This document shows, piece after piece, positions 1-41,042 of a DNA stretch of 43,499 nucleotides. Source of the DNA: Oceanibaculum indicum P24 (lineage in GTDB: Bacteria > Pseudomonadota > Alphaproteobacteria > Oceanibaculales > Oceanibaculaceae); the NCBI RefSeq assembly GCF_000299935.1, contig NZ_AMRL01000028.1, positions 1 to 43,499 on the forward strand, written 5' to 3'. The position numbers and the translations under genes are program-made. Under the pieces are notes generated by a model that searched no databases, was not told the DNA's origin, and worked only from the letters and a program-made list of their open reading frames with translations. How positions within the stretch are numbered: position 1 is the first letter of the stretch; every line of letters starts with the position of its first letter.

Positions 1-757
1 GCTGGATCTGCAGGGCCTGCAGCCTTGCCGATTCCTTTGCCAGGTCGGCATCGACGATGGACCCGAGGCCCACTTCCACGGCATCAGCGATCTTGCCGAT
101 GAAATCGTCCTGGAAGTTCAGCTTACGGGTATCGGCACCGATGTTGCCGAGCGCGGTGTTGACCGCCGACTCGAAGGTGGCCAGCGCATCCAGCGTCGAG
201 GTCGCCGCCGAGGCGCTGCTGACGTCCGCGGCACCCGAGAAGGTGTCCAGATCGCCGATCAGGTCATTCGGACGCAGTTCGATGGTCGAACCATCGATGT
301 CCGAGATGACGTTGGTCGTCGCCGCGCCGGAGTTCAGCAGGTTGTTGCCCTGAAACGTCGCCTGGTTCAGGAAGGCACGGGCCTGATCGACCAGCTGATT
401 GAAGTCAGAAGTCAGGATCGAGCGCTGTGCCGTCGTGATGGCGGCGTTCGCCAGCTCAACGACCTTCTTCTTGATGTCGCCGACCAGATCGGACACCGCC
501 GTGGCGCCGGCTTCGGCAACCTTCATGACACCGCGCGCATTGGCGAGGCCCTGAGAGACGGCACCGTAGGCCTTCATCTCGCCGCGCAGACCCTGAGCGA
601 TCGAGAAGCTGGAAGCGTCATCGACAGCGCCAGTCACCTTGAAACCGGTCGAAACACGGTTCTGCGTCGTATCCAAACGGCTGTTGATGCTGTTCAGATT
701 CTGCAGGGCGACGAGAGCGCCGACATTGGTATTGATGGAGTTATTACCTGCGGCCAT
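1..757 (-). CDS. Flagellin, C-terminus cut by window edge
   Basis: This is the filament subunit of the bacterial flagellum. The reading frame gives 252 residues from an ATG at 757, preceded by an AAGGAA ribosome site 7 bases upstream. The N-terminal D0/D1 helix is clear (NTNVGALVALQNLN, then GAVDDASSFSIAQGLRGEM), and the C-terminal coiled-coil D1/D0 begins near the window edge (VDADLAKESARLQALQIQ). About 20-30 residues are missing past base 1. The middle is short and rich in Ser/Thr/Ala (for example SGAADVSSASAATSTLDAL), as in the roughly 270-residue flagellins of Caulobacter-type alphaproteobacteria. Such surface Ser/Thr stretches are the usual O-glycosylation targets, which fits the pseudaminic acid genes in this window. 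That link is inference. Confidence 0.95.
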   Translation of the reverse strand, partial: MAAGNNSINTNVGALVALQNLNSINSRLDTTQNRVSTGFKVTGAVDDASSFSIAQGLRGEMKAYGAVSQGLANARGVMKVAEAGATAVSDLVGDIKKKVVELANAAITTAQRSILTSDFNQLVDQARAFLNQATFQGNNLLNSGAATTNVISDIDGSTIELRPNDLIGDLDTFSGAADVSSASAATSTLDALATFESAVNTALGNIGADTRKLNFQDDFIGKIADAVEVGLGSIVDADLAKESARLQALQIQ

Positions 758-923
758 GATCAAATTCCTTTTTCTAAGGGTTAGCCGATATGCCAGCCAC
801 GCCTTCGTTTTGATTGCGTAAAATGCCAGCTATCGGAATAAATGCTATTTCCGCGCCCGCCTGTCAAACAAAAAACATCAGCAAAGTGAAATTTTCTTCA
901 GGCTGGGGATTTGGGCCGGGGGC

Positions 924-27132: not shown

Positions 27133-27828
27133 ATGAAGGTGGCGGTGATCCCGGCGCGGGGCGGCAGCAAGCGCATCCCGCGCAAGAACATCAAGGATTT
27201 CTGCGGCCGGCCGATGATCGCCTGGAGCATCATCGCGGCGCAGAAATCCGGCCTGTTCGACCATATCATCGTCTCCACCGAGGATGCCGAGATCGCGCAG
27301 GTGGCGCGCGAATGGCGGGCGGAAACGCCGTTCACCCGACCGACCGACCTTGCCGACGATCATACCGGCACCACACCGGTTGTCGCTCATGCCGTGGAGT
27401 GGATGCAGGACCAGGGCTGGCCAGTAGAGGCGGTGTGCTGCCTCTACCCCGCCTCCCCCTTCATCCATGCCGAGGATATCCGCGCGGGACTTGACCTGCT
27501 GCAATCGGGCGACTGGGCCTATGCCTTCACCGTCACGGACTTCCCCGCCCCGATCTTCCGCTCCTTCCGGCAATTGCCCGAAGGCGGGGTGGAGATGTTC
27601 TTCCCCGAACATGCCCTCACCCGATCCCAGGATTTGCCGGAGGCGCTGCATGACGCGGCGCAGTTCTACTGGGGCACGCCGGAGGCCTGGCGTTCCGGCA
27701 AGCCGATGTTCGCGCCACACACCATTCCGCTGCGCATTCCGCGCTGGCGCGTGCAGGATATCGACAATGAGGATGACTGGGTCCGCGCCACCCACCTCTT
27801 CCGATTGCTGGAACTGCATAAGGGCTGA
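27133..27828 (+). CDS. pseF: Pseudaminic acid cytidylyltransferase
   Basis: The 231-residue enzyme activates a nonulosonic acid with CTP to give the CMP-sugar donor. The signature IPARGGSKRIPRKNI occupies residues 6-20, followed by DFCGRPMIAWSI and IIVSTEDAEIAQVA. The blocks VCCLYPASPFIHAEDI and DNEDDWVRA fit the PseF branch better than NeuA or LegF. It is the first gene of a tightly packed plus-strand unit (pseF, methyltransferase, GNAT, ATP-grasp, HAD). The next gene begins 6 bases after its stop. The branch call (pseudaminic rather than legionaminic) is supported by pseB and pseC 10 kb away. Confidence 0.88.
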   Translation: MKVAVIPARGGSKRIPRKNIKDFCGRPMIAWSIIAAQKSGLFDHIIVSTEDAEIAQVAREWRAETPFTRPTDLADDHTGTTPVVAHAVEWMQDQGWPVEAVCCLYPASPFIHAEDIRAGLDLLQSGDWAYAFTVTDFPAPIFRSFRQLPEGGVEMFFPEHALTRSQDLPEALHDAAQFYWGTPEAWRSGKPMFAPHTIPLRIPRWRVQDIDNEDDWVRATHLFRLLELHKG

Positions 27829-28727: not shown

Positions 28728-29324
28728 ATGGACAGCCCGCCCGTCACCTATGCCTGCATGCCGCATCCGGTACTGGAAGCCGGCAGCCTGTCGGTACGCG
28801 CGGTGCAGAAGACGGAGATCGAGGCGATCCGGCAGTGGCGCAATGCGCAGATCGATGTGCTGCGCCAGGCCGCGCCGATCACGCCAGAGCAGCAGGAGGC
28901 CTATTTCGCGCGGCATATCTGGCCACAGCTCGACAGTTCGCAGCCAGACACGATTCTGGTCAGCTATCGGGAAGAGGACCGGCTGATCGGCTATGGCGGG
29001 CTGGTGCATGTCGCCTGGGCGCACCGGCGGGCCGAGGTCTCCTTCCTGCTCGACCCGGTTCATATCGGCGACGAGAAGGTCGTTGCCCGCTATTTCGGTG
29101 CCTTTCTTGGCCTGATGAAAAGGCTGGCCTTCGCCGATCTTGGGCTGAACCGGCTGTGCACCGAGACCTATGCGATCCGCCCGCATTACGTCGCCATGCT
29201 GGAAGAGAACGGCTTCCGGCGGGAAGGCGTGCTGCGCCAGCATGTCTGGATCGGCGGGCAGCCGGTCGATTCGATCCTGCAGGGCTGTCTTGCCGGAGAC
29301 GGTGAGTGGGCGGATGAGCAGTAA
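28728..29324 (+). CDS. GNAT N-acetyltransferase, possible PseH role
   Basis: This 198-residue GNAT-fold protein has the acceptor and acetyl-CoA pattern IRQWRNAQIDVLRQ (near 35), LIGYGGLVHVAWAHRRAEVS (near 85) and LCTETYAIRPHYVAMLEENG (near 145), ending FRREGVLRQHVWIGGQPVD. The family includes PseH, which N-acetylates the C4 amine of UDP-4-amino-4,6-dideoxy-AltNAc. PseH proteins are usually shorter (about 160-180 residues). Given pseB, pseC, pseF and pseI nearby, this is the only candidate for that step in the window. It overlaps the next gene by 11 bases. Confidence 0.78.
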   Translation: MDSPPVTYACMPHPVLEAGSLSVRAVQKTEIEAIRQWRNAQIDVLRQAAPITPEQQEAYFARHIWPQLDSSQPDTILVSYREEDRLIGYGGLVHVAWAHRRAEVSFLLDPVHIGDEKVVARYFGAFLGLMKRLAFADLGLNRLCTETYAIRPHYVAMLEENGFRREGVLRQHVWIGGQPVDSILQGCLAGDGEWADEQ

Positions 29325-30279
29325 CCGCCATCTTCTGGTGACCAGTGCCGCGCGCAAGATCCCGCTGCTGCGCGCAGCGATCAGCGCCGCGCGGAAACTG
29401 TCGCCCGACATGCAGGTGCTGGCCGGCGATCTCGACCCGGACGCCCCGGCGCAATATGTCGCCGACGGGTTCTGGGTCATGCCGCGCACAGACGATACGG
29501 CACTGGACGCGCTGATTGCCGGCTGCAGGGAGCGTGGCATCGGCTTCGTATTGCCGACGCGCGATGGCGAATTGCTGTTCTGGGCGCGGCACAAGGCACG
29601 CTTCGCCGGCGAGGGCATCGCGGTGCTGGTCTCGCCGGAGGAGAGCGTGACGCGCTGCCTCGACAAGCTGGCCTTCGCGCGCTTCGGACAGTCGGGTGGC
29701 CTGCCCTTCATTCCGGCCTTCGAAGGGCTGGAGGATGCCGGCCCCGCTCCCTACGCCGTTAAGGAGAGATTCGGCGCCGGCTCGCGCGCCATCGGCCTGA
29801 ACCTCGATGCGGCTTCCGCGCAGGAGCATGCCAAGGGGCTGACCGCGCCGATCTTCCAGCCCTTCATCGAAGGTATGGAAATCAGCGTCGATGCCTGGAT
29901 CGACAGAAACCACAAGATGAAGGGGCTGGTCCTGCGTCGCCGCGACCGGGTGGTGGACGGCGAATCGCAGGTGACGACGACATTCCGCGATGCCGCCATT
30001 GAGGATGCCGCCCGTACGGCGCTGGAAGCGCTGCAGCTCTGCGGGCCGGTGGTCATGCAGATCCTGATCGACAGGGCCAGCCAGCCGCACATCATAGAAT
30101 GCAACAGCCGGTTCGGCGGCGCCTCCACCGCCGGCATCGCTGCCGGGCTGGACTCGCTGTACTGGAGCCTCGCAGAGGCCGCGGGCAAGGATGTCGTCGC
30201 CCTGCCCTTCGCCCGCATTTCCGGCGAGGTGCGGCAGGTGCGCCTGCCCGCCGACACGCATTTCATCCTGCCGGCATGA
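29314..30279 (+). CDS. ATP-grasp domain protein in the nonulosonate cassette
   Basis: From the ATG at 29314 (MSSNRHLLVTSAARKIPLL) the product is 321 residues. It follows the carbamoyl-phosphate-synthase-like ATP-grasp layout: an N-terminal Rossmann-like part (VLAGDLDPDAPAQYVADGFW), then YAVKERFGAGSRAIGLNL (ATP lysine and glycine loop, near 148), then IFQPFIEGMEISVDAW (near 185) and VVMQILIDRASQPHIIECNS, with the metal-binding Glu/Asn in IIECNSRFGG. A GTG at 29302 is an alternative start. It overlaps the GNAT gene by 11 bases and the HAD gene by 4. Such enzymes ligate an amine or thiol to a carboxylate using ATP. The partners here are unknown. Confidence 0.85.
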   Translation: MSSNRHLLVTSAARKIPLLRAAISAARKLSPDMQVLAGDLDPDAPAQYVADGFWVMPRTDDTALDALIAGCRERGIGFVLPTRDGELLFWARHKARFAGEGIAVLVSPEESVTRCLDKLAFARFGQSGGLPFIPAFEGLEDAGPAPYAVKERFGAGSRAIGLNLDAASAQEHAKGLTAPIFQPFIEGMEISVDAWIDRNHKMKGLVLRRRDRVVDGESQVTTTFRDAAIEDAARTALEALQLCGPVVMQILIDRASQPHIIECNSRFGGASTAGIAAGLDSLYWSLAEAAGKDVVALPFARISGEVRQVRLPADTHFILPA

Positions 30280-30947
30280 TCCTGGTCTTCGACCTCGACG
30301 ACACGCTGTACGACGAAAGCCGCTTCGTCGAGAGCGGCTTCCGCGCCGTCGCCCGTTTCGGCAAGCAGCAATTCGGCTGGGACGAACAGGACTCGCTGGC
30401 GCAGATGCTGGAGACGCTGGTGCGCGAGGGGCGTGGCGCGGTGTTCGACCGCTGGCTGGCGGCGCATGGGCAGCACGGCAAGGCGCTGGTTGCGGCCTGT
30501 GTGAAGGCCTACCGCCACCACAAACCGACGCTGTCGCTGTTCCCGAAAGCGGCTTCGCTGCTGCCCTCCTTGTCGGCCTATCCGCTCTATCTCGTCACTG
30601 ACGGGCACAAGATCGTGCAGGCCAACAAGGTGGAAGCACTCGGCATCGCGCCGCTGTTCCGCAAATGCTTCATCACGCACCGCTACGGCATCCGGCACGC
30701 CAAGCCCTCGCCCTACTGCTTCGAGCTGATCCGGCGGCGGGAAAAAGCGGACTGGCGGCAGATTGTCTATATCGCCGACGATCCGTCGAAGGATTTCGTC
30801 GGGCTGAATCCGCTGGGCGCGCAGACCGTGCGCGTGCTGACCGGCCGGCACCGGCATGTCGTGGCGAAACCGGGCTTCGAGGCGCGCCACACCATCCCCG
30901 ACCTGTTTTCCTTCTCTTCCCTGCTGGCGGAGATGGAACGAGGTTAA
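30276..30947 (+). CDS. HAD-superfamily hydrolase in the nonulosonate cassette
   Basis: This is a 223-residue phosphatase-like protein. Motif I is FDLDDTLYDES with nucleophile D6 and acid/base D8. Motif II is LVTDGHK, the lysine motif is AKPSPYCFELI, and motif IV is YIADDPSKDFVG, all intact. The start ATG overlaps the ATP-grasp stop codon (ATGA), which indicates coupled translation. It is the last gene of the plus-strand unit, ending 10 bp before the convergent pseI stop codon. In this setting it may dephosphorylate the nonulosonate-9-phosphate or an ATP-grasp product. In pseudaminic acid synthesis proper no phosphatase is needed, so the role is open. Confidence 0.85.
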   Translation: MILVFDLDDTLYDESRFVESGFRAVARFGKQQFGWDEQDSLAQMLETLVREGRGAVFDRWLAAHGQHGKALVAACVKAYRHHKPTLSLFPKAASLLPSLSAYPLYLVTDGHKIVQANKVEALGIAPLFRKCFITHRYGIRHAKPSPYCFELIRRREKADWRQIVYIADDPSKDFVGLNPLGAQTVRVLTGRHRHVVAKPGFEARHTIPDLFSFSSLLAEMERG

Positions 30948-30957
30948 AGCCTCCTGG

Positions 30958-32025
30958 TTAGGCCCCGGGCACGCCGCCTTCCACCATATCGGCCTTGAAC
31001 GCCTCGCCGCGCTTCAGGTCACGCGACGCCTTGCGGCCCAGCACGGCATCCAGATATTTCGGCAGCAACCCGTGTGCCGGGCGGATGGAGCGCACCGAGG
31101 CCTCGGTAATCGTCTCGCCCTTCTTCACATCCGCCACGACATAGAGCGAGCGGCGGAACCGCAAGGAATCCTGCTCCGCCTCGGTCGGGCCATAGACGGG
31201 CGTGCCCAGGGCGGCCTGCGCCGCGCACGTATCGGCCACCAGCGTTGCCAGCTCCGCCGGCTCCAGCGAGAAGGCGCTGTCCACGCCGCCATCGGCGCGG
31301 GCCAGGGTGAAATGCTTCTCGATCAGTGAGGCGCCCAGCCCGATTGCCACGGTGGAGGCCAGCGTGCCCATCGAATGGTCAGACAGTCCGACCACCGTGC
31401 CCAGCCGCGCCGCCAGATCGGGAATGTTCGACAGGTTCGCGCGCTCGATCGGCGTCGGATAGGCGCTGATGCAGTGCAGGACGGCGATCTCCTTCGCCCC
31501 GGCCTCGCGCGCGGCGGCCACCGCCTCCTCGATCTCCTCGAAGGTCGCCATGCCGGTGGACAGGATCAGCGGCTTGCCGGTCCGCGCCACGAGCCGGATC
31601 AGCGGGATATCGACGATTTCCGACGAGGCGATCTTGTAAACCGGCGCATCCAGCGATTCCAGCAGTTCGACCGCAGTCGGGTCAAACGGGGCGGAGAAGA
31701 TGGTGATGCCGATTTCCCGCGCGTGCCGGAACAGCGGTTCGTGCCATTCCCACGGCGTATGCGCGTCCTGGTACAGGTCATACAGGCGCTGGCCTTCCCA
31801 CAGCCCCTTGCCGACGCGGAAATCCGGCCCGTCATGGTCGATGGTGATGGTATCGGCGCGGTAGGTCTGCAGCTTCACCGAATCGGCACCGGCCGCCTTC
31901 GCCGCGTCCAGGATGGCGAGTGCGCGTCCGATATCGCCATTATGATTGCCCGACATCTCCGCCACGATATAGGGCGGATGACCCGGCCCGACCGGCCGGC
32001 CGTCAATGGTCATCATGGGAGGCAT
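30958..32025 (-). CDS. pseI: Pseudaminic acid synthase
   Basis: The 355-residue enzyme condenses phosphoenolpyruvate with a 2,4-diacetamido-6-deoxyhexose to give the nine-carbon acid. The NeuB-fold signature IVAEMSGNHNG is at residues 20-30, followed by GADSVKLQTYRADTITID, then ILSTGMATFEEIEEAV and VGLSDHSMGT. The C-terminal antifreeze-like SAF domain is complete (RSLYVVADVKKGETITEASV, then RPAHGLLPKYL, then AVLGRKASRDLKRGE). The start at 32025 has AAGG 7 bases upstream; the frame stays open far beyond but is not protein-like. It is convergent to the cassette, not inside it. Confidence 0.93.
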   Translation of the reverse strand: MPPMMTIDGRPVGPGHPPYIVAEMSGNHNGDIGRALAILDAAKAAGADSVKLQTYRADTITIDHDGPDFRVGKGLWEGQRLYDLYQDAHTPWEWHEPLFRHAREIGITIFSAPFDPTAVELLESLDAPVYKIASSEIVDIPLIRLVARTGKPLILSTGMATFEEIEEAVAAAREAGAKEIAVLHCISAYPTPIERANLSNIPDLAARLGTVVGLSDHSMGTLASTVAIGLGASLIEKHFTLARADGGVDSAFSLEPAELATLVADTCAAQAALGTPVYGPTEAEQDSLRFRRSLYVVADVKKGETITEASVRSIRPAHGLLPKYLDAVLGRKASRDLKRGEAFKADMVEGGVPGA

Positions 32026-32193
32026 GGCCGCACCTTTCCGCCTGTGCCGGATGCGGCGCCGGAGCTCAACCCCCTGCACAACCGCCGCATCTTGTGGTGT
32101 AGTAATGACTAACCCCATGATATACGCAAAGTGGGGGTGTGCGCCACAGCCTGTTGTCGTGACGTGCCGCAGCATGACCGAAGGAGCCGAAGC

Positions 32194-32949
32194 ATGGCCG
32201 AAGACAAGCCCATCCGTACCCTCGTCGGCTCGACGCAATCCGAATCCGAGCGCAAGCTGGAGCTGGTGCGGCGCCTGCGCAACTCGCCTATTCCGGATCA
32301 GGAACTGCTGGACAATATCGGCCTCTACCTCACCCGCCAGACCCTGTCGCGCATCAATTTCATGCAGATGCTCTACCGGATGATCGTGCCGGTGCATGGC
32401 GTGATCATGGAATTCGGCGTGCGCTGGGGGCAGAACATGGCGCTGTTCTCGGCGCTGCGCGGCATCCATGAGCCCTACAACTACAACCGCATGGTGATCG
32501 GCTTCGACACCTTCGAGGGCTTTCCGTCGGTCGGCCCGGAGGATGGCGGGCGCGTGCAGGCAGGCGATTACGGCGTTGCCGAAAACTGGATGGGTGAGCT
32601 GGAGGATATACTCGGCTTCCATACCCAGAATGCGCCGATACCGCACAAGACCAAGCACAGGCTGGTCAAGGGCGACGCCACCGAAACCCTGCCCGCCTAT
32701 CTGCAGGAGCACCCGGAAACCATCGTCGCGCTGGCCTATTTCGACTTCGATATCTACAAGCCGACGCGCGACTGCCTGGAGGCGATCCTGCCGCATCTGA
32801 CAAAGGGCAGCGTGCTGGCCTTCGACGAGCTGAACATGCCCGAATTCCCAGGCGAAACCCTTGCCGTGCGCGAGGTGCTGGGCCTGTCGCGCTACGCCAT
32901 CCGCCGCGACCCGTCGAGCCCGCTGACCTCCTACATGGTGATCGAATGA
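32194..32949 (+). CDS. TylF-like SAM-dependent methyltransferase
   Basis: The 251-residue protein starts MAEDKPIRTLVGSTQSE, with AAGGAG 7 bases before the ATG. It has the family blocks GVIMEFGVRWGQNMALFSAL (SAM entry, near residue 70), MVIGFDTFEGFPSVGPEDGG, then IVALAYFDFDIYKPTRDCLE and LAFDELNMPEFPGET. These resemble macrocin/TylF-type O-methyltransferases, a group common in bacterial glycan islands and often misannotated. It precedes the double TPR-glycosyltransferase gene by 142 bp on the same strand, so it may methylate the flagellar sugar. The acceptor is not known. Confidence 0.78.
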   Translation: MAEDKPIRTLVGSTQSESERKLELVRRLRNSPIPDQELLDNIGLYLTRQTLSRINFMQMLYRMIVPVHGVIMEFGVRWGQNMALFSALRGIHEPYNYNRMVIGFDTFEGFPSVGPEDGGRVQAGDYGVAENWMGELEDILGFHTQNAPIPHKTKHRLVKGDATETLPAYLQEHPETIVALAYFDFDIYKPTRDCLEAILPHLTKGSVLAFDELNMPEFPGETLAVREVLGLSRYAIRRDPSSPLTSYMVIE

Positions 32950-33091: not shown

Positions 33092-36000
33092 ATGAACCGC
33101 AAGCAACGCCGCGCCAATCAGAAGCAGATCACTGCTACTACCCCCCTCGCTTCCGGCAAGGGTGTGCCGCTGACGCAGATGTTGCAGACAGCGGTCGCCC
33201 ATCACAGGGCCGGGCGCGAGGCCGAGGCCGAGGCGATCTATCTTCAGATACTGGAGAGACAGCCGCGCAACGCGACGGCGCTGCATTTTCTGAGCCTTAT
33301 CGCCAAGGATCGCGGCCAGCTGGACGAAGCGCTGGCACTGGTCGCCAAGGCGCTGGAGGCTGACCCCCGCTATGCGGAAGCGCACAACAGCGCCGGTACC
33401 TATCACAAGCTGAAACAGGATCTGGACAAGGCGGTCGCCAGTTTTCGCCGCGCGGCCGAACTGAAGCGCCAGTATGCGGAGGCACATTATAATCTGGGCA
33501 CCATCTTTGGCGATCAGGACAAGCTGGACGAAGCGGTCGAGCAGTACAGGATCGCGATCGATATCCAGCCGAACTACACCCAGGCCCTGAACAATCTCGG
33601 CATCGTCCTCAGCAAGCTGCTGCGGCTGGAAGAGGCGACAGACTGCTTCCGCCGCGCGCTGCGGATCGACCCGACGATGGCCTCGCTCTATTCGAACTTC
33701 GGCAATGCGCTGCGACGCCAGGGCAAATACGAGCAGGCCATGCAGGCATATGCCTGTGCCTCGGCCCTGTCCCCGGAGCTGATCGACCCGCGCTTCAACT
33801 ACGGCACCCTCGACCTTCAGGTCGGCCAGCTGGAGCCGGGCTGGAAACTCTACGAGCTGGGCTTCCCGCTCGGTGAGAGGCGCCCGCTGCGGCGCCTTGA
33901 ACAGCCGCGCTGGACGGGCGAGGACGCGCAGGACAAGTCGATCCTGGTCTGGCGCGAGCAGGGCATCGGCGACGAGATCATGTTCGGCACCTGCATTCCG
34001 GATCTGGTCCGCCAGGCCCGCAAGGTCATCGTCGAATGCGACACACGTCTGGTTCCGCTGTTCGCCCGATCCATCCCTGAAGCGCTCGTCAGGCCCTCGG
34101 ATTCCTTCGCCCCTTCGGTGCCCGATGCCGACGCGCATATCCCGATGGGCAGCCTGCCGGGCCTGTACCGGAACGCTATCGGCGATTTCCCGAAGACCCC
34201 CGGTTACCTGCGGGCCGACCCCGCCCGCATGGCGTACTGGAAGAAGCGCATCGATGCCCTGGGCGACGGCGTCAAGGTCGGCCTCTGCTGGCGCAGCCAG
34301 TTGCGCAGCCGCGACCGTAACCTTGCCTATGCCGAGATCGAGGATGTGAAGCCGCTGTTTTCCATCCCCGGCATCCGCTTCATCTGCCTGCAATATGATG
34401 CGAGTGCCGAGGAAGTGGCGGAGCTGAACCAGGCGCACGGCATCGACCTTGTCCATATCGACGGGCTGGACCAGCGCAACGACATCGACGGCGCCGCCGC
34501 GCTGATGGCCAATATCGATCTGGTCATCTCGGCGGCAACCTCGGTGGGTGAGATTGCCGGCGCGCTGGGCATGCCGGTCTGGCGCTTCAGCCTGGAAGCG
34601 GACTGGACGCGCCACGGCACCCGCAACCGCCCCTGGTTTCCCAGCATGCGGTGTTTCAGCCGCCACCCGGATTCGCCGTGGCGAAACCTATTCGCCGAGG
34701 TACAGCGCGAGCTGGCCGCCATCGCGGCCGACCCGAGGGCGTTGCGAGAACAGGGCAAGCAGGCCTTTACCTGGAGTGTGGCGCTGCCGGAAACGGCACC
34801 CGAGACCGATACGCCGCCCGTGCTGGGGCATGACGAGAAGAAGAAGCCTTCCTTCTCGATGATGATGCAGCAGCAAAAGGGTGATGCCGCGAACCCCGCC
34901 CTTGCCGCACAGGCCGAGACCGCGCGAAAGGCCGAGCTGGCCAGCAACTATTTCAAGTCCGGCGATTATGTTGCCGCGCTGGATATCTACCAGGAAATCC
35001 TCGCCGCCAATCCCATCGACAAGAACGCCCTGTTCGGCACGGCCAACATCGCGGCGGCGACCGGGCAGCCGGAGTCGGCCGTCGCCCTGTATCAGACCCT
35101 GCTGCAGATCGATCCGGACTCGGTGGAGGTCATCAACAATCTCGGCTCCGTCCTGCGCAAGATGGGCAGGCATGCGGAATCCATCGACATCGTCCGCGAG
35201 GCAATCAACCGCTATCCGCAGGAAGCCCGGCTCTGGCACAACATCGCTGCCACCCTGTCGCAACGCCACGAACCCGGCGATATCGACAATGCGATCCTGT
35301 TCTATGAGGAGGCGCTGCGCCTCGACCCCTCGCTTCCCGAACCGTTCAGCAATTACGCCATGCTGCAATGCATCCTCGGCAATGGGGAGAAAGGGCTGGA
35401 CCTCCACCGCAAGGCCCTGGAACTGGCGCCGGACAATAGGCAGCTTCAGCTGAACTACGCCGTCGATCTGCTGGCTACCGGCCATATCCAGGAAGGCTGG
35501 CAGCGCTACGAGGCCCGCCTTGAGCGCGGCATGGCACAGGCCATCGATTACCGTCACGGCCTGCCGCGCTGGCAGGGCGAGGACCTGTCCGGCAAGGCCA
35601 TCCTGGTGTCAGGCGAACAGGGGCTGGGCGACCAGATCTTCTTTGCCAATTGCCTGCCTGACGTGGCGGCGAAGGCGAAGCAGGTAACCCTCGATGTCGA
35701 GGCCCGTCTGGTGCCGCTGTTCCGCCGCTCCTTCCCCGGCATCCATGTCCATGCCAGCACCAGAACCGGAGAAGACGGCAACATCGTCTATACCTATGAC
35801 TGGCTGACCGAAAAGCATGATTACGCCTGCCCGGTCGGCAGCCTGCCGCTTTACCTGCGGCAAAGGCCGGAGGATTTCCCGGCGACCGGCGGCTATCTGA
35901 AGGCGGATGACCAGCGCATCGACAGCTGGCGCAAAAGGCTGGAGAAGCTGGGGCCGGAACCGAAGATCGGCATATGCTGGCGCAGCGGCCTGCGCACGCC

Positions 36001-36403
36001 CGACCGGCGACGCTTCTATACCGAACTGGCCGAATGGGGCCCGATCCTTACACTGCCGGGCCTGCGCTTCGTGAATTTGCAATATGACGATTGCGCCGAG
36101 GAACTGGCCGCCGCCGCCCGGCAATTCGGTGTCACGATCCAGAACTTCACCGATGTCGATCAGCGCAATGATCTGGACGAAACGGCAGCACTGATCACAG
36201 CGCTGGATATGGTGATCACCGCGCCGACCGCCGTCCAGGCGATGGCCGGCGCGCTGGGCGTGCCGACCCTGCTGCTGGGGGCAAGCTGGCTGTCTCTCGG
36301 CACTGACCGCTTCCCGTTCCAGCCCAGCGTGACGCCGGTGCGCGGCACGCCGGAGGTGCCGATGCTCGACCGCGCGGCGGAAATCCTGCGGGAGAGGTTC
36401 TAG
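33092..36403 (+). CDS. Double-module TPR-glycosyltransferase, candidate flagellin glycosyltransferase
   Basis: The protein is 1103 residues, starting MNRKQRRANQKQ. Module 1 has TPR repeats (about 20-250; for example AEAHYNLGTIFGDQDKLDEA) followed by a GT-B/GT9-like domain (about 265-555). After a linker (about 560-605) module 2 repeats this: TPRs (about 610-795) and a second glycosyltransferase domain (about 810-1100). Matching landmarks are REQGIGDEI (near 288) and GEQGLGDQI (near 840), VGLCWRSQLRSRDR (near 396) and IGICWRSGLRTPDR (near 958), and DQRNDIDGAAAL (near 460) and DQRNDLDETAAL (near 1023). Caulobacter FlmG, a TPR plus glycosyltransferase protein, moves pseudaminic acid to flagellin, so I infer the same role. 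It stays in the cytoplasm, as no signal peptide or membrane helix is seen. Confidence 0.85.
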   Translation: MNRKQRRANQKQITATTPLASGKGVPLTQMLQTAVAHHRAGREAEAEAIYLQILERQPRNATALHFLSLIAKDRGQLDEALALVAKALEADPRYAEAHNSAGTYHKLKQDLDKAVASFRRAAELKRQYAEAHYNLGTIFGDQDKLDEAVEQYRIAIDIQPNYTQALNNLGIVLSKLLRLEEATDCFRRALRIDPTMASLYSNFGNALRRQGKYEQAMQAYACASALSPELIDPRFNYGTLDLQVGQLEPGWKLYELGFPLGERRPLRRLEQPRWTGEDAQDKSILVWREQGIGDEIMFGTCIPDLVRQARKVIVECDTRLVPLFARSIPEALVRPSDSFAPSVPDADAHIPMGSLPGLYRNAIGDFPKTPGYLRADPARMAYWKKRIDALGDGVKVGLCWRSQLRSRDRNLAYAEIEDVKPLFSIPGIRFICLQYDASAEEVAELNQAHGIDLVHIDGLDQRNDIDGAAALMANIDLVISAATSVGEIAGALGMPVWRFSLEADWTRHGTRNRPWFPSMRCFSRHPDSPWRNLFAEVQRELAAIAADPRALREQGKQAFTWSVALPETAPETDTPPVLGHDEKKKPSFSMMMQQQKGDAANPALAAQAETARKAELASNYFKSGDYVAALDIYQEILAANPIDKNALFGTANIAAATGQPESAVALYQTLLQIDPDSVEVINNLGSVLRKMGRHAESIDIVREAINRYPQEARLWHNIAATLSQRHEPGDIDNAILFYEEALRLDPSLPEPFSNYAMLQCILGNGEKGLDLHRKALELAPDNRQLQLNYAVDLLATGHIQEGWQRYEARLERGMAQAIDYRHGLPRWQGEDLSGKAILVSGEQGLGDQIFFANCLPDVAAKAKQVTLDVEARLVPLFRRSFPGIHVHASTRTGEDGNIVYTYDWLTEKHDYACPVGSLPLYLRQRPEDFPATGGYLKADDQRIDSWRKRLEKLGPEPKIGICWRSGLRTPDRRRFYTELAEWGPILTLPGLRFVNLQYDDCAEELAAAARQFGVTIQNFTDVDQRNDLDETAALITALDMVITAPTAVQAMAGALGVPTLLLGASWLSLGTDRFPFQPSVTPVRGTPEVPMLDRAAEILRERF

Positions 36404-37446: not shown

Positions 37447-38685
37447 CTAGCGGTTGCCGAGGCCCAGCACCTCGCCCAGCGCCGCGACCGCGCGGTCCAC
37501 ATCGCCCTCTTCCATGCCGGCGAACAGCGGCATGGACAGGCAGCGCGCGTAATAGGCATCCGCGCCCGGCAGTGACACCGCGCCATACCGTTGGCGGTAA
37601 TAGGGCTGCAGATGGACAGGGATGTAATGAACCTGCGTGCCGATGCCCTTGCCGCGCAGCCGGTTCATCACCGCCGCCCGGTCCAGCCCGACACGCTGGA
37701 AGTCGATCAGGACCGGGTGCAGATGCAGTGCCGGCTCCAGCCCGTCACGCTTGTGGAGGCCCGTCACCACCGGCGCCCAGTCGGCCAGCAACTCGTCATA
37801 GCGCCGCGACAGGGCCAGCCGCGTGGCGGCGAAGCGCGGCAGCTTAGCCAGCTGGCTGCGGCCCAGCGCGCACTGAAAGTCGGTCGCCCGGTAATTGAAG
37901 CCGGGTTCCGGCATCTCGTAATACCAGGGGTTCGCACGCCCCTCCGCATCGAAAGCAAGGTCGGTTTCGGTGAATTCCTCCGGCGTGCGGGTCATGCCGT
38001 GGCTGCGGAAGGCCCGCAGCCGGGCCGCCAGGCCAGGATCGTTGGTGGTGACCGCCCCGCCCTCGCCCATCGTCACCGTCTTCACCGGATGGAAGGAGAA
38101 AGTGGTCATGTCGGCATGCGCGCCGGAGCCGACGGCGTTCCACGCCCCCGACGGATCGCGGTAGCGCGTGCCCAGCGCGTGGCTGGCATCATCGACGATG
38201 GCAAGCCCCTGCCGGCGGGCAATGGCATGGATGCCCTCGACATCGCCGACCGGCCCGCCCAGATGCACGTTGAACACCGCCTTCGCCTTGCCTTCAGCCG
38301 GCACGCGGGCGAGCGCCTGCTCCAGCGCCGCCTGCGTCATCAGCCCGGTATCGGGATCGACATCGGCGAACACCACCTCCGCCCCGACATAGCGCGCGGC
38401 ATTGGCGGTAGCGAGGAAGGTGACCGTCGGCACCACCACCCAGTCGCCGGGGCCGAGGCCCAGCGCCAGCGCGGCCAGATGCAGAGCCGCCGTGCCATTG
38501 GCGCAGGCCACGGCGTGGCGTGCTTCCGTCACTGCCGCGAGGTCTGCCTCGAAGCGGTCAACCTCCGGCCCGGTGGTCAGATAATCGCCGCGCAGCACGG
38601 CGGCCACGGCGGCGATATCGTCCTCCTCGATGAGCTGACGGCCATAGGGCAGGAACGCCCCGGCGCCCCCGCTATCCTTCGTCAC
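37447..38685 (-). CDS. pseC: UDP-4-amino-4,6-dideoxy-AltNAc transaminase
   Basis: This 412-residue PLP enzyme of the DegT/DnrJ/EryC1 family aminates the 4-keto sugar made by PseB. The PLP lysine is K202 in HPVKTVTMGEGG. Other blocks are DYLTTGPEVDRFE, ANGTAALHLAALALGLGPGD and the PseC-like C-terminal GIGTQVHYIPVHLQPYY. I place the start at a GTG (38685) because an AAGG site precedes it and it overlaps the pseB stop codon by 4 bases (GTGA), a coupled arrangement. The longer frame runs back into pseB and is not plausible. Confidence 0.93.
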   Translation of the reverse strand: MTKDSGGAGAFLPYGRQLIEEDDIAAVAAVLRGDYLTTGPEVDRFEADLAAVTEARHAVACANGTAALHLAALALGLGPGDWVVVPTVTFLATANAARYVGAEVVFADVDPDTGLMTQAALEQALARVPAEGKAKAVFNVHLGGPVGDVEGIHAIARRQGLAIVDDASHALGTRYRDPSGAWNAVGSGAHADMTTFSFHPVKTVTMGEGGAVTTNDPGLAARLRAFRSHGMTRTPEEFTETDLAFDAEGRANPWYYEMPEPGFNYRATDFQCALGRSQLAKLPRFAATRLALSRRYDELLADWAPVVTGLHKRDGLEPALHLHPVLIDFQRVGLDRAAVMNRLRGKGIGTQVHYIPVHLQPYYRQRYGAVSLPGADAYYARCLSMPLFAGMEEGDVDRAVAALGEVLGLGNR

Positions 38686-39755
38686 ACTACCTTGTCCTTC
38701 AGATAGAAGCCCAGATCCTCGCGGCCCAGCCATTCGTCATTGCGGTCGCTGGAATAGACGAAATCCTCCGGAACCGGCTTCGCATTCTTGTAGCCGGACG
38801 GGCGCGACCACCAGGCAAAGGAGGGCTGGATGACGTAACGGTCGCCCAGATCGACAGTGGTGCGCGAATCGTCGGAGGAGATCATCACCTCGTGGATCTT
38901 CTCGCCCGGACGGATGCCCACCACCCGGTGTTTCAGATTCGGGGCCAGCGCGATGGCGAATTCCGTCATCAGCATGCTGGGAATCTTCGGCACGAAAATC
39001 TCGCCGCCGCGCATCAGCGGCAGGCAGGACAGCACGAAATTCACGCCCTGCGTCAGGGTGATCCAGAACCGCGTCATGCGCAGATCAGTGATCGGCAGGT
39101 CCTCCGCCCCTTCCTCGATCAGCTTCTGGAAGAAGGTCACCACGCTGCCGCGCGAGCCGACCACATTGCCATAGCGCACGACCGAGAAACGGCAGCCATT
39201 GCCACCCGCCAGATTGTTGGCGGCGATGAAAATCTTGTCGGAGGCCAGCTTGCTGGCGCCATACAGGTTGATCGGGTTGGCCGCCTTGTCGGTGGACAGG
39301 GCGATGACCCGCTTCACCCCCGCGCCGATGGCGGCGCGCACCACATTCTCCGCCCCCATGACGTTGGTGTGGATACATTCGAACGGGTTGTACTCGGCAA
39401 TCGAGACATGCTTCATCGCCGCCGCATGGATCACGTAATCCACGCCGCGCATCGCCATTTCCAGCCGTTCGGCATTGCGCACATCGCCGATGAAATAGCG
39501 CATGAAGGGATAGCGGTCGGTGGGGAATTCCTGCGCCATCTCATACTGTTTCATCTCGTCGCGCGAGAAGACGATGAGGCGCTTGGGCGTATAGCGTGAG
39601 ATGACCTGCTTCACGAAGTGACGGCCAAAGGACCCGGTACCGCCGGTCACCAGAATGACCTTGTCGTTGAAGTCGGTTTCCTTGTCCAGGAAGTCGCGAT
39701 AGAAGCTGGGCGCGCTGATGCCGCCCTCGGTAACTGTCTGCTTTTCGATGTCCAT
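38682..39755 (-). CDS. pseB: UDP-N-acetylglucosamine 4,6-dehydratase (inverting)
   Basis: This 357-residue SDR-type dehydratase performs the first step of pseudaminic acid synthesis, converting UDP-GlcNAc to the UDP-4-keto-6-deoxy-AltNAc intermediate. The NADP loop GGTGSFG is at residues 38-44. The catalytic Y165 and K169 lie in LYGASKLAS, preceded by the STDKAANPIN block typical of PseB/FlaA1. A GAGGGGG site precedes the ATG. It has a roughly 25-residue N-terminal extension before the Rossmann fold compared with typical FlaA1. It lies on the minus strand behind a flagellar gene and a small TPR gene, and overlaps pseC. Confidence 0.93.
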   Translation of the reverse strand: MDIEKQTVTEGGISAPSFYRDFLDKETDFNDKVILVTGGTGSFGRHFVKQVISRYTPKRLIVFSRDEMKQYEMAQEFPTDRYPFMRYFIGDVRNAERLEMAMRGVDYVIHAAAMKHVSIAEYNPFECIHTNVMGAENVVRAAIGAGVKRVIALSTDKAANPINLYGASKLASDKIFIAANNLAGGNGCRFSVVRYGNVVGSRGSVVTFFQKLIEEGAEDLPITDLRMTRFWITLTQGVNFVLSCLPLMRGGEIFVPKIPSMLMTEFAIALAPNLKHRVVGIRPGEKIHEVMISSDDSRTTVDLGDRYVIQPSFAWWSRPSGYKNAKPVPEDFVYSSDRNDEWLGREDLGFYLKDKVV

Positions 39756-39844: not shown

Positions 39845-40231
39845 TCAGTCGGCAAGCGCCGCGTCATCCATGACCCGCGCGGTCCCGAGGGAGACCATCT
39901 CCGGCATCGGATGCAGCGCGAGGCCGAGGCGATACAGGCTGACCTCGCCGCTTGTCTTCAGCTGCGCGACATTGCGGGCGGCGGTGCGGCAGGTCGGATC
40001 GACCAGCAGCGCCAGCCGGTAACAGCGTACGGCGGCATCATTCTGGCCGAGCCGCACCAGCAGGTCGCCCAGCGCGGTCAGTGCCGGCACCGAGCGCGGC
40101 GCGTGAAAGATCGCCGTGCGGTAGCTGTCGATGGCGTCGTCGATATCGCCGCGCGCCTCCTGCTCCCGGCCAAGGCCGATATAATGCTCCGGGTCCGTCG
40201 GAAGGATGCGGATGGCGGAAAGGTCGGTCAT
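39845..40231 (-). CDS. Small TPR protein between flagellar DUF1217 gene and pseB
   Basis: The 128-residue protein starts MTDLSAIRILPTDPEHYIGL. Residues about 15-85 are two TPR units (LGREQEARGDIDDAIDSYRT and LGDLLVRLGQNDAAVRCYRL), followed by a short tail without recognised domain. It begins 7 bases after the DUF1217 stop codon and ends 89 bp before pseB, all on one strand. TPR proteins bind other proteins. Position suggests a partner of flagellin or of the glycosylation machinery, but there is no direct evidence. Confidence 0.78.
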   Translation of the reverse strand: MTDLSAIRILPTDPEHYIGLGREQEARGDIDDAIDSYRTAIFHAPRSVPALTALGDLLVRLGQNDAAVRCYRLALLVDPTCRTAARNVAQLKTSGEVSLYRLGLALHPMPEMVSLGTARVMDDAALAD

Positions 40232-40238
40232 AGCGGCC

Positions 40239-41042
40239 TCACACAAGGATGTTGAGATTGCCACCCTGCAGCAGCTGCAGAGCGATCTGGCCCGAGGAGC
40301 CGAAGGAGCCGCCACCCATGTTGGCGAGCTGCGCCTCGGCGTCCTTCTGCGTCAGGAAGCGGGCGATGAACTTGTCCACGAAGGCCGGGTCCTTGAAATC
40401 CTCCGGCTTAACCTTGGATTCGATGACCTTTGCCTGGCGTTCCAGGGACTGGTTCACGATCTCCTTGGGGATGCGCAGCGTGTCGGTAATCACCGAGCGC
40501 AGCACCTTGTCGCCCATCAGCTTGTAGATATCGCCATCCTCGGCAACCTCGGCGACCTTGCGGCGGAAATAGGCGGCCTCGCGCAGCGACTCGTTGCCAC
40601 CGCCCAGATTCTTCTCGAACTGGTTGGTCAGGTACTTGTCGGTGATTTCCTTGAGGAACTTCTCGTCCTTCAGCTTCTCCACGCCCGAGCCGGAGAAATC
40701 GAAGGCTTCCGAAATCTGCTTGTAGCGCGGTTCGGCCATCCGGTTGACCAGCGACTCCTTCGCCGCGGGGTCCTCGGTCATGATCGTCTTGATGCGCGCG
40801 GTGTAGTTCAGCTCCTGCTCCAGACCGAACGCGCCCAGCGCCACCTGCATTAGGCGGCGGTCCTTGAAGAAATCCTCTGGCGATTCGATCTTCTTCGCAT
40901 TCTCCAGGAAGTAATCGATCTCCCGCTGCATCTGTGGCTGCTTGGCGAACTGCTGCTTCTGCGCGTCGCCCGAATGCTGCAGCGTCCTGAACAGCAGCAG
41001 GGAGGACATGCCGCTCCCACTGGTCCCGGTTCCGATCTGCAT
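40239..41042 (-). CDS. DUF1217 flagellar protein
   Basis: The 267-residue soluble protein is mostly helical and contains the repeated pattern of DUF1217 proteins: REIDYFLENAKKIESPEDFF, RRLMQVALGAFGLEQEL, later DKVLRSVITDTLRIPKEI and DPAFVDKFIARFL. DUF1217 genes are found in flagellar loci of alphaproteobacteria, with unclear function. The chosen ATG at 41042 has AAGGGGA upstream. It is the first gene of a minus-strand group with the small TPR gene, pseB and pseC. This is the strongest contextual link between the pseudaminic acid genes and the flagellum in this window. Confidence 0.87.
   Translation of the reverse strand: MQIGTGTSGSGMSSLLLFRTLQHSGDAQKQQFAKQPQMQREIDYFLENAKKIESPEDFFKDRRLMQVALGAFGLEQELNYTARIKTIMTEDPAAKESLVNRMAEPRYKQISEAFDFSGSGVEKLKDEKFLKEITDKYLTNQFEKNLGGGNESLREAAYFRRKVAEVAEDGDIYKLMGDKVLRSVITDTLRIPKEIVNQSLERQAKVIESKVKPEDFKDPAFVDKFIARFLTQKDAEAQLANMGGGSFGSSGQIALQLLQGGNLNILV

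Follow-up and report, generated by a model that had tools for sequence, protein, structure and literature searches.

A two-module TPR-glycosyltransferase encoded among pseudaminic acid genes of Oceanibaculum indicum is a probable two-headed flagellin glycosyltransferase

The DNA analyzed here, referred to as the window, comprises 43,499 nucleotides of Oceanibaculum indicum P24 (assembly GCF_000299935.1, contig NZ_AMRL01000028.1, forward strand). The following genes are located in the window.

2..763, minus strand: flagellin gene, truncated at the end of the contig, encoding the probable acceptor (PF00669, 81 bits; translation)
27133..27828, plus strand: PseF, CMP-pseudaminic acid synthetase, maker of the probable donor (TIGR03584, 299 bits, cut-off 206)
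30958..32010, minus strand: PseI, pseudaminic acid synthase (TIGR03586, 479 bits, cut-off 340)
32131..32949, plus strand: TylF-like methyltransferase, possibly sugar-modifying, just upstream of the two-module ORF (PF05711)
33092..36403, plus strand: two-module TPR-glycosyltransferase (TPR-GT) ORF, 1103 amino acids (open over 1103 codons)
37447..38733, minus strand: PseC aminotransferase (TIGR03588, 472 bits, cut-off 424)
38682..39755, minus strand: PseB dehydratase (TIGR03589, 516 bits, cut-off 408)

All four Pse genes score above their NCBIfam cut-offs, which bears out the pseudaminic acid neighborhood described in the original prediction. PseB, PseC, PseF, and PseI flank the two-module ORF, and this genomic context points to the pseudaminic acid pathway expected of an FlmG-type system. 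The open frame of PseI extends to position 33117. Interspersed among the Pse genes around the two-module ORF are genes for methyltransferases and for GNAT, ATP-grasp, and HAD proteins; the ATP-grasp and HAD-family genes lie at positions 29170-30947, within the Pse cluster. PseG was not found in the window genome (G000) or in that of a relative (G001), which leaves the exact donor uncertain; a PseG-like gene lies beside PseI in two genomes of the sister lineage (G002 and G003). The HAD gene in the Pse cluster could stand in for PseG. The original prediction had noted that no Maf gene is seen in the window, and this extends to the whole genome, in which no gene matched PF01973 and none matched PF20157, the latter in a search that had no positive control. 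Two other TPR-containing frames were observed in the genome. One is a TPR-only ORF of 156 amino acids (positions 39845-40315) between PseB and a DUF1217 gene. It occupies the place of a single-module TPR-GT at loci L009 and L010 and is 31% identical to the TPR part of that protein (E 2.7e-4), a resemblance from which it is possibly a remnant of such a gene. The other is a distant TPR-GT elsewhere in the genome (G000:C17:55268-56566), with a frame of 833 amino acids and 31% identity.

The two-module protein is divided as follows.

33170..33862, plus strand: module 1 TPR superhelix, residues 27-257 (Pfam TPR; all-helical in the AlphaFold2 model)
33893..34759, plus strand: module 1 GT-B domain, residues 268-556 (profile A1, 452.9 bits; motifs; model)
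34760..34894, plus strand: inter-module linker, residues 557-601 (between the modeled domains; in four of four genus members)
34895..35521, plus strand: module 2 TPR superhelix, residues 602-810 (Pfam; AlphaFold2 model)
35522..36400, plus strand: module 2 GT-B domain, residues 811-1103 (profile A1, 432.3 bits; motifs; structural match to 3tov_A)

Aligning and modeling the two halves, the checks that had been proposed along with the claim of two complete TPR and GT modules, substantiated that claim. The halves (residues 1-560 and 561-1103) match each other by BLASTP at E = 7e-86, with 33% identity over 523 columns, and the two GT domains (GT1 and GT2) are 40% identical over 310 columns, with a Smith-Waterman score of 569, whereas none of 300 shuffles scored above 51. 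Pfam detects TPRs in both halves. AlphaFold2 models of each half, calculated separately from 13-sequence alignments, reveal a TPR superhelix and, C-terminal to it, an alpha/beta GT-B domain, with mean pLDDT of 88.4 and 91.4. The N-terminal TPR and C-terminal GT-B order of FlmG is therefore present twice in one chain, as the predicted FlmG-like architecture had it. The characterized enzyme, FlmG of Caulobacter crescentus (CCNA_01524; Ardissone et al. 2020), contains one module and 596 residues (PMC7591256); the window protein, with 1103 residues, departs from a single module of about 600 residues, a property of one characterized FlmG rather than a proven family requirement. FlmG has been expressed in E. 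coli together with a Pse pathway and a flagellin.

Neither half matched the Pfam family of GT41 at E values up to 0.01, and PF01973 (Maf) is absent from the Pfam matches of the protein. The sole GT family listed for the ORF is PF01075 (GT9), at 19.0 bits against a cut-off of 22. Of the families that the original prediction had named for such searches, GT41 thus gave no match and GT9 one below threshold. No solved structure related in sequence to the GT domain was found apart from a single chance match. In structural comparisons, the best overall Foldseek matches of the halves are SPINDLY and O-GlcNAc transferase, and the GT9 structure 3tov_A superimposes on the GT domain of module 2 (VIA-align; Z 17.5, rmsd 3.3, 259 residues). 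The GT domain of module 1 contains EQGxGD with D294, WRS at residues 400-402, and a donor-side TSVGE with E487. The corresponding landmarks of module 2 are EQGxGD with D847, WRS at residues 963-965, and a donor-side APTAVQA of the FlmG-like type, which contains no Glu. The Asp of GxGD presumably corresponds to the catalytic base of GT9 enzymes.

The two-module ORF occurs in four of four genomes of the genus examined, including Oceanibaculum pacificum (L010), and is thus not an assembly artifact. The proteins of the three relatives are 90, 51, and 51% identical to that of the window, and the MNRKQRR start is kept in them. Invariant columns among 16 aligned GT domains include E-Q-G-x-G-D and W-R-S, which both halves retain by definition, as both are rows of this alignment; EQGxGD is also kept throughout a wider set of 59 GT domains. 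Comparison of the window protein with its nearest relative yields dN/dS of 0.097 for GT1 and 0.102 for GT2, and higher values for the TPR parts (0.18 and 0.24). With dN/dS near 0.10, each GT domain is strongly constrained by purifying selection. The halves have diverged, as originally proposed, and neither looks dead. The intact motifs and dN/dS led us to reject a dead second half.

Phylogenetic analysis revealed that the two halves may differ in ancestry. In a tree of the 59 GT domains, seven single-module proteins form a group with module 2 of the genus (99/94), and module 1 lies elsewhere. Most of the seven adjoin flagellin genes, and their frames of 588-624 amino acids are similar in length to FlmG; we designate them FlmG-like on the basis of architecture, length, and flagellin neighbors, the characterized C. 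crescentus FlmG being outside the sequence set. The split of the modules in the tree agrees with the difference in their donor-side motifs. Module 1 contains TSVGE-AGALG, as do multi-module proteins of family f46 and the single-module paralogue, whereas APTAVQA-AGALG of module 2 resembles APTAA of the FlmG-like proteins. Forcing module 1 together with the FlmG-like set was rejected (p-AU 0.0037). Forcing modules 1 and 2 together was likewise rejected with the FlmG-like proteins in the tree (p-AU 0.0057) but was allowed by an earlier tree that lacked these proteins (p-AU 0.30), and the separate ancestry of the halves, and with it the rejection of a simple tandem duplication, varies with taxon sampling. 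We prefer the tree that includes the FlmG-like proteins. Because the GT domains belong to different subfamilies and their union is rejected in this tree, the sequences favor fusion of two paralogues over duplication of a single gene, and the initial description of the protein as tandemly duplicated is not supported.

ORFs of two, three, or four TPR-GT modules are found in several other families of Alphaproteobacteria; family f46 alone contains proteins of 2, 3, and 4 modules. The original statement that FlmG-type enzymes have one of each domain therefore holds for the characterized enzyme but not across the class, where proteins of two to four modules recur. Plasmid records of Azospirillum contain two- and three-module ORFs, and the gene order in Azospirillum ramasamyi is flagellin, flbT, and the two-module gene, the last of which is overlapped by flbT. 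A Thiotrichales bin contains a three-module ORF of 2069 amino acids (L011 6237-12443) with a C-terminal extension. By eye, this extension past the third GT domain looks like an FkbM-type methyltransferase. Modules in the multi-module proteins of other lineages group by lineage and share as much as 79% identity within a single protein, which indicates that multi-module proteins arose more than once. A four-module gene adjoins PseB and PseC at L090/L091, with PseI and flagellin within 25 kb in G158 (L090/L122). Flagellin-adjacent TPR-GT genes occur in several families, some of them also with PseB/PseC (L125-L127, L131-L133); for some other TPR-GT genes of the class (e.g., L092 and L093), the stretches read contain neither flagellin nor Pse genes. 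In annotated records, the names given to such proteins go no further than "tetratricopeptide repeat protein" or "TPR-containing glycosyltransferase family protein".

Unfused counterparts also occur. In G130 and G358 (L106 7152-11120, L153 1694-5662), two single-module genes are arranged head to tail and share a frame; only TGA-CCG-ATG separates them, which leaves the pair one stop codon short of a two-module protein. The GT domains of this pair belong to another lineage in the 59-domain tree. A single-module TPR-GT pair in G218 (L154) is in different frames. On contig C1 of G343, all five TPR-GT matches contain an internal stop (TAA, and in one also TAG), and these are either pseudogenes or a matching artifact.

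Across 386 genomes of the class, TPR-GT genes are associated with NeuB (99/45 versus 77/165; odds ratio 4.7, p 1.7e-12, by a Fisher test that ignores shared ancestry, with five candidates scored per genome); the odds ratio rises to 8.5 for the stronger TPR-GT matches. Counts of NeuB-family genes by PF03102 are one each in G000 and G001 and two each in G002 and G003, and PseI is the only such gene found in the window genome. In G002 and G003, the two-module gene is bordered by a legionaminic-type cluster (NeuB-like, NeuC-like, PtmE-like, and LegB-like genes) and, on its opposite side, by PseC/PseB; an additional single-module TPR-GT follows PseB. The legionaminic-type cluster is upstream of the two-module gene (L010 2635-7868, L009 2630-7815), where the window has PseI.

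The window flagellin gene is about 32 kb from the two-module gene, and in G001 about 30 kb separate the TPR-GT gene from three flagellin genes of two sequence classes. The window contig ends inside its flagellin gene, and contig C13 of the same genome (G000:C13:2-190) starts inside one that is 97% similar. The two contigs are probably neighbors broken at a flagellin repeat.

The architecture, conservation, intact motifs, selection, linkage to Pse and flagellin genes, and precedent of FlmG lead us to read the window protein as a flagellin O-glycosyltransferase. Specifically, we consider it probable that the protein is a cytoplasmic enzyme with two active sites that uses CMP-pseudaminic acid or a derivative to modify different acceptor sites or flagellins. 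By analogy with FlmG, each TPR superhelix would bind flagellin, which we infer to be the acceptor, and each GT-B domain would use a CMP-activated nonulosonic acid to glycosylate Ser/Thr of flagellin in the cytoplasm prior to export. The likeliest donor is CMP-pseudaminic acid, or else a derivative that the products of neighboring genes make from it. The two heads would probably share this donor and divide their labor, with separate acceptor sites of a single flagellin, or several types of flagellin, as their targets, and their fusion may keep one flagellin chain close to both active sites.

The division of labor could be otherwise. If the modules transferred different sugars, such as pseudaminic acid and a second or modified sugar, flagellin would acquire two decorations or a short chain. 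The placement of the GT domains in different subfamilies, with TSVGE in module 1 and APTAVQA in module 2, is consistent with this arrangement, as are the possible sugar-modifying genes around the window gene (methyltransferases, GNAT, ATP-grasp) and the position of the gene between a legionaminic-type cluster and PseB/PseC in G002 and G003, which possess two NeuB-family genes. However, the two-module protein is kept in the window genome and G001 with a single NeuB-family synthase, and the extra single-module paralogue of G002 and G003 could serve the second sugar. Because that paralogue coincides with the second sugar pathway and the two-module protein is retained whichever complement is present, these findings favor the use of one nonulosonic donor by both heads in the window strain, where the single synthase makes two such donors unlikely. 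The equation of two modules with two nonulosonic acids is thereby weakened, as is that part of the earlier suggestion of different donors, and transfer of two sugars seems to us unlikely.

Replacement of E487 in module 1 by A1050 in module 2 raises the possibility that only one half is catalytic and the other provides a scaffold or flagellin-binding arm, a role for which there is precedent in the binding of flagellin by the TPR domain of FlmG alone. This possibility is quite improbable, given that both halves contain all invariant residues, purifying selection is equally strong on GT1 and GT2, and that Glu is likewise missing from the single-module FlmG-like proteins encoded next to flagellin. 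Finally, the distance to the window flagellin gene and the TPR-GT genes of L092 and L093, which stand apart from flagellin and Pse genes in the stretches read, could point to a different acceptor, for instance a surface polysaccharide or another cell-surface protein. We regard such an acceptor as very improbable: TPR-GT genes adjoin flagellin genes in several families, Azospirillum has its run of flagellin, flbT, and TPR-GT genes, and no Maf was found that could act as an alternative flagellin glycosyltransferase.

Our preferred reading, a flagellin O-glycosyltransferase with two active sites, places the window protein in a wider set. The multi-module TPR-glycosyltransferases to which this two-headed FlmG-type enzyme belongs are without a description that we found in searchable literature; a mention of tandem TPR-GT flagellin enzymes in a 2023 EMBO J paper on the donor specificity of FlmG (PMC9975948) is possible. 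It is tempting to speculate, and we do so tentatively, that multi-headed TPR-glycosyltransferases of two to four modules and several origins constitute a distinct class in flagellin glycosylation, and that the differing donor pockets of the window protein put two different decorations, or two site-specific ones, on one flagellin chain. How the specificity of cytoplasmic O-glycosylation is set is an open question (PMC7591256). With two TPR-GT pairs in the window protein and three or four in relatives, specificity could be analyzed through the removal or exchange of entire modules, and multi-module TPR-GT proteins may prove useful for glycosylating one protein at several positions.

Comparison with known systems reveals both similarities and differences. 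The presumed reaction, transfer of a nonulosonic acid to flagellin, would be that of Maf flagellin glycosyltransferases, from which the window protein differs in having no Maf family match. GT9 heptosyltransferases (3tov) share the GT fold, as seen for module 2, together with the weak PF01075 match. Enzymes of GT9 typically have no TPRs and act on the lipopolysaccharide core. A TPR superhelix followed by GT-B is also the organization of the protein-acting GT41 enzymes O-GlcNAc transferase and SPINDLY, the best Foldseek matches; these have a single module, in contrast to the two of the window protein, which has no GT41 Pfam match. Multi-module ORFs of Azospirillum and other Alphaproteobacteria likewise contain two to four TPR and GT modules, some beside flagellin-flbT or PseB/PseC, but they represent a different GT lineage that was multiplied separately. 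C. crescentus FlmG shares with the window protein an N-terminal TPR domain and a C-terminal GT-B domain, a pseudaminic acid pathway, linkage to flagellin, and the absence of Maf. Unlike this single-module enzyme, the window protein fuses two modules, apparently of different subfamilies, in one chain.
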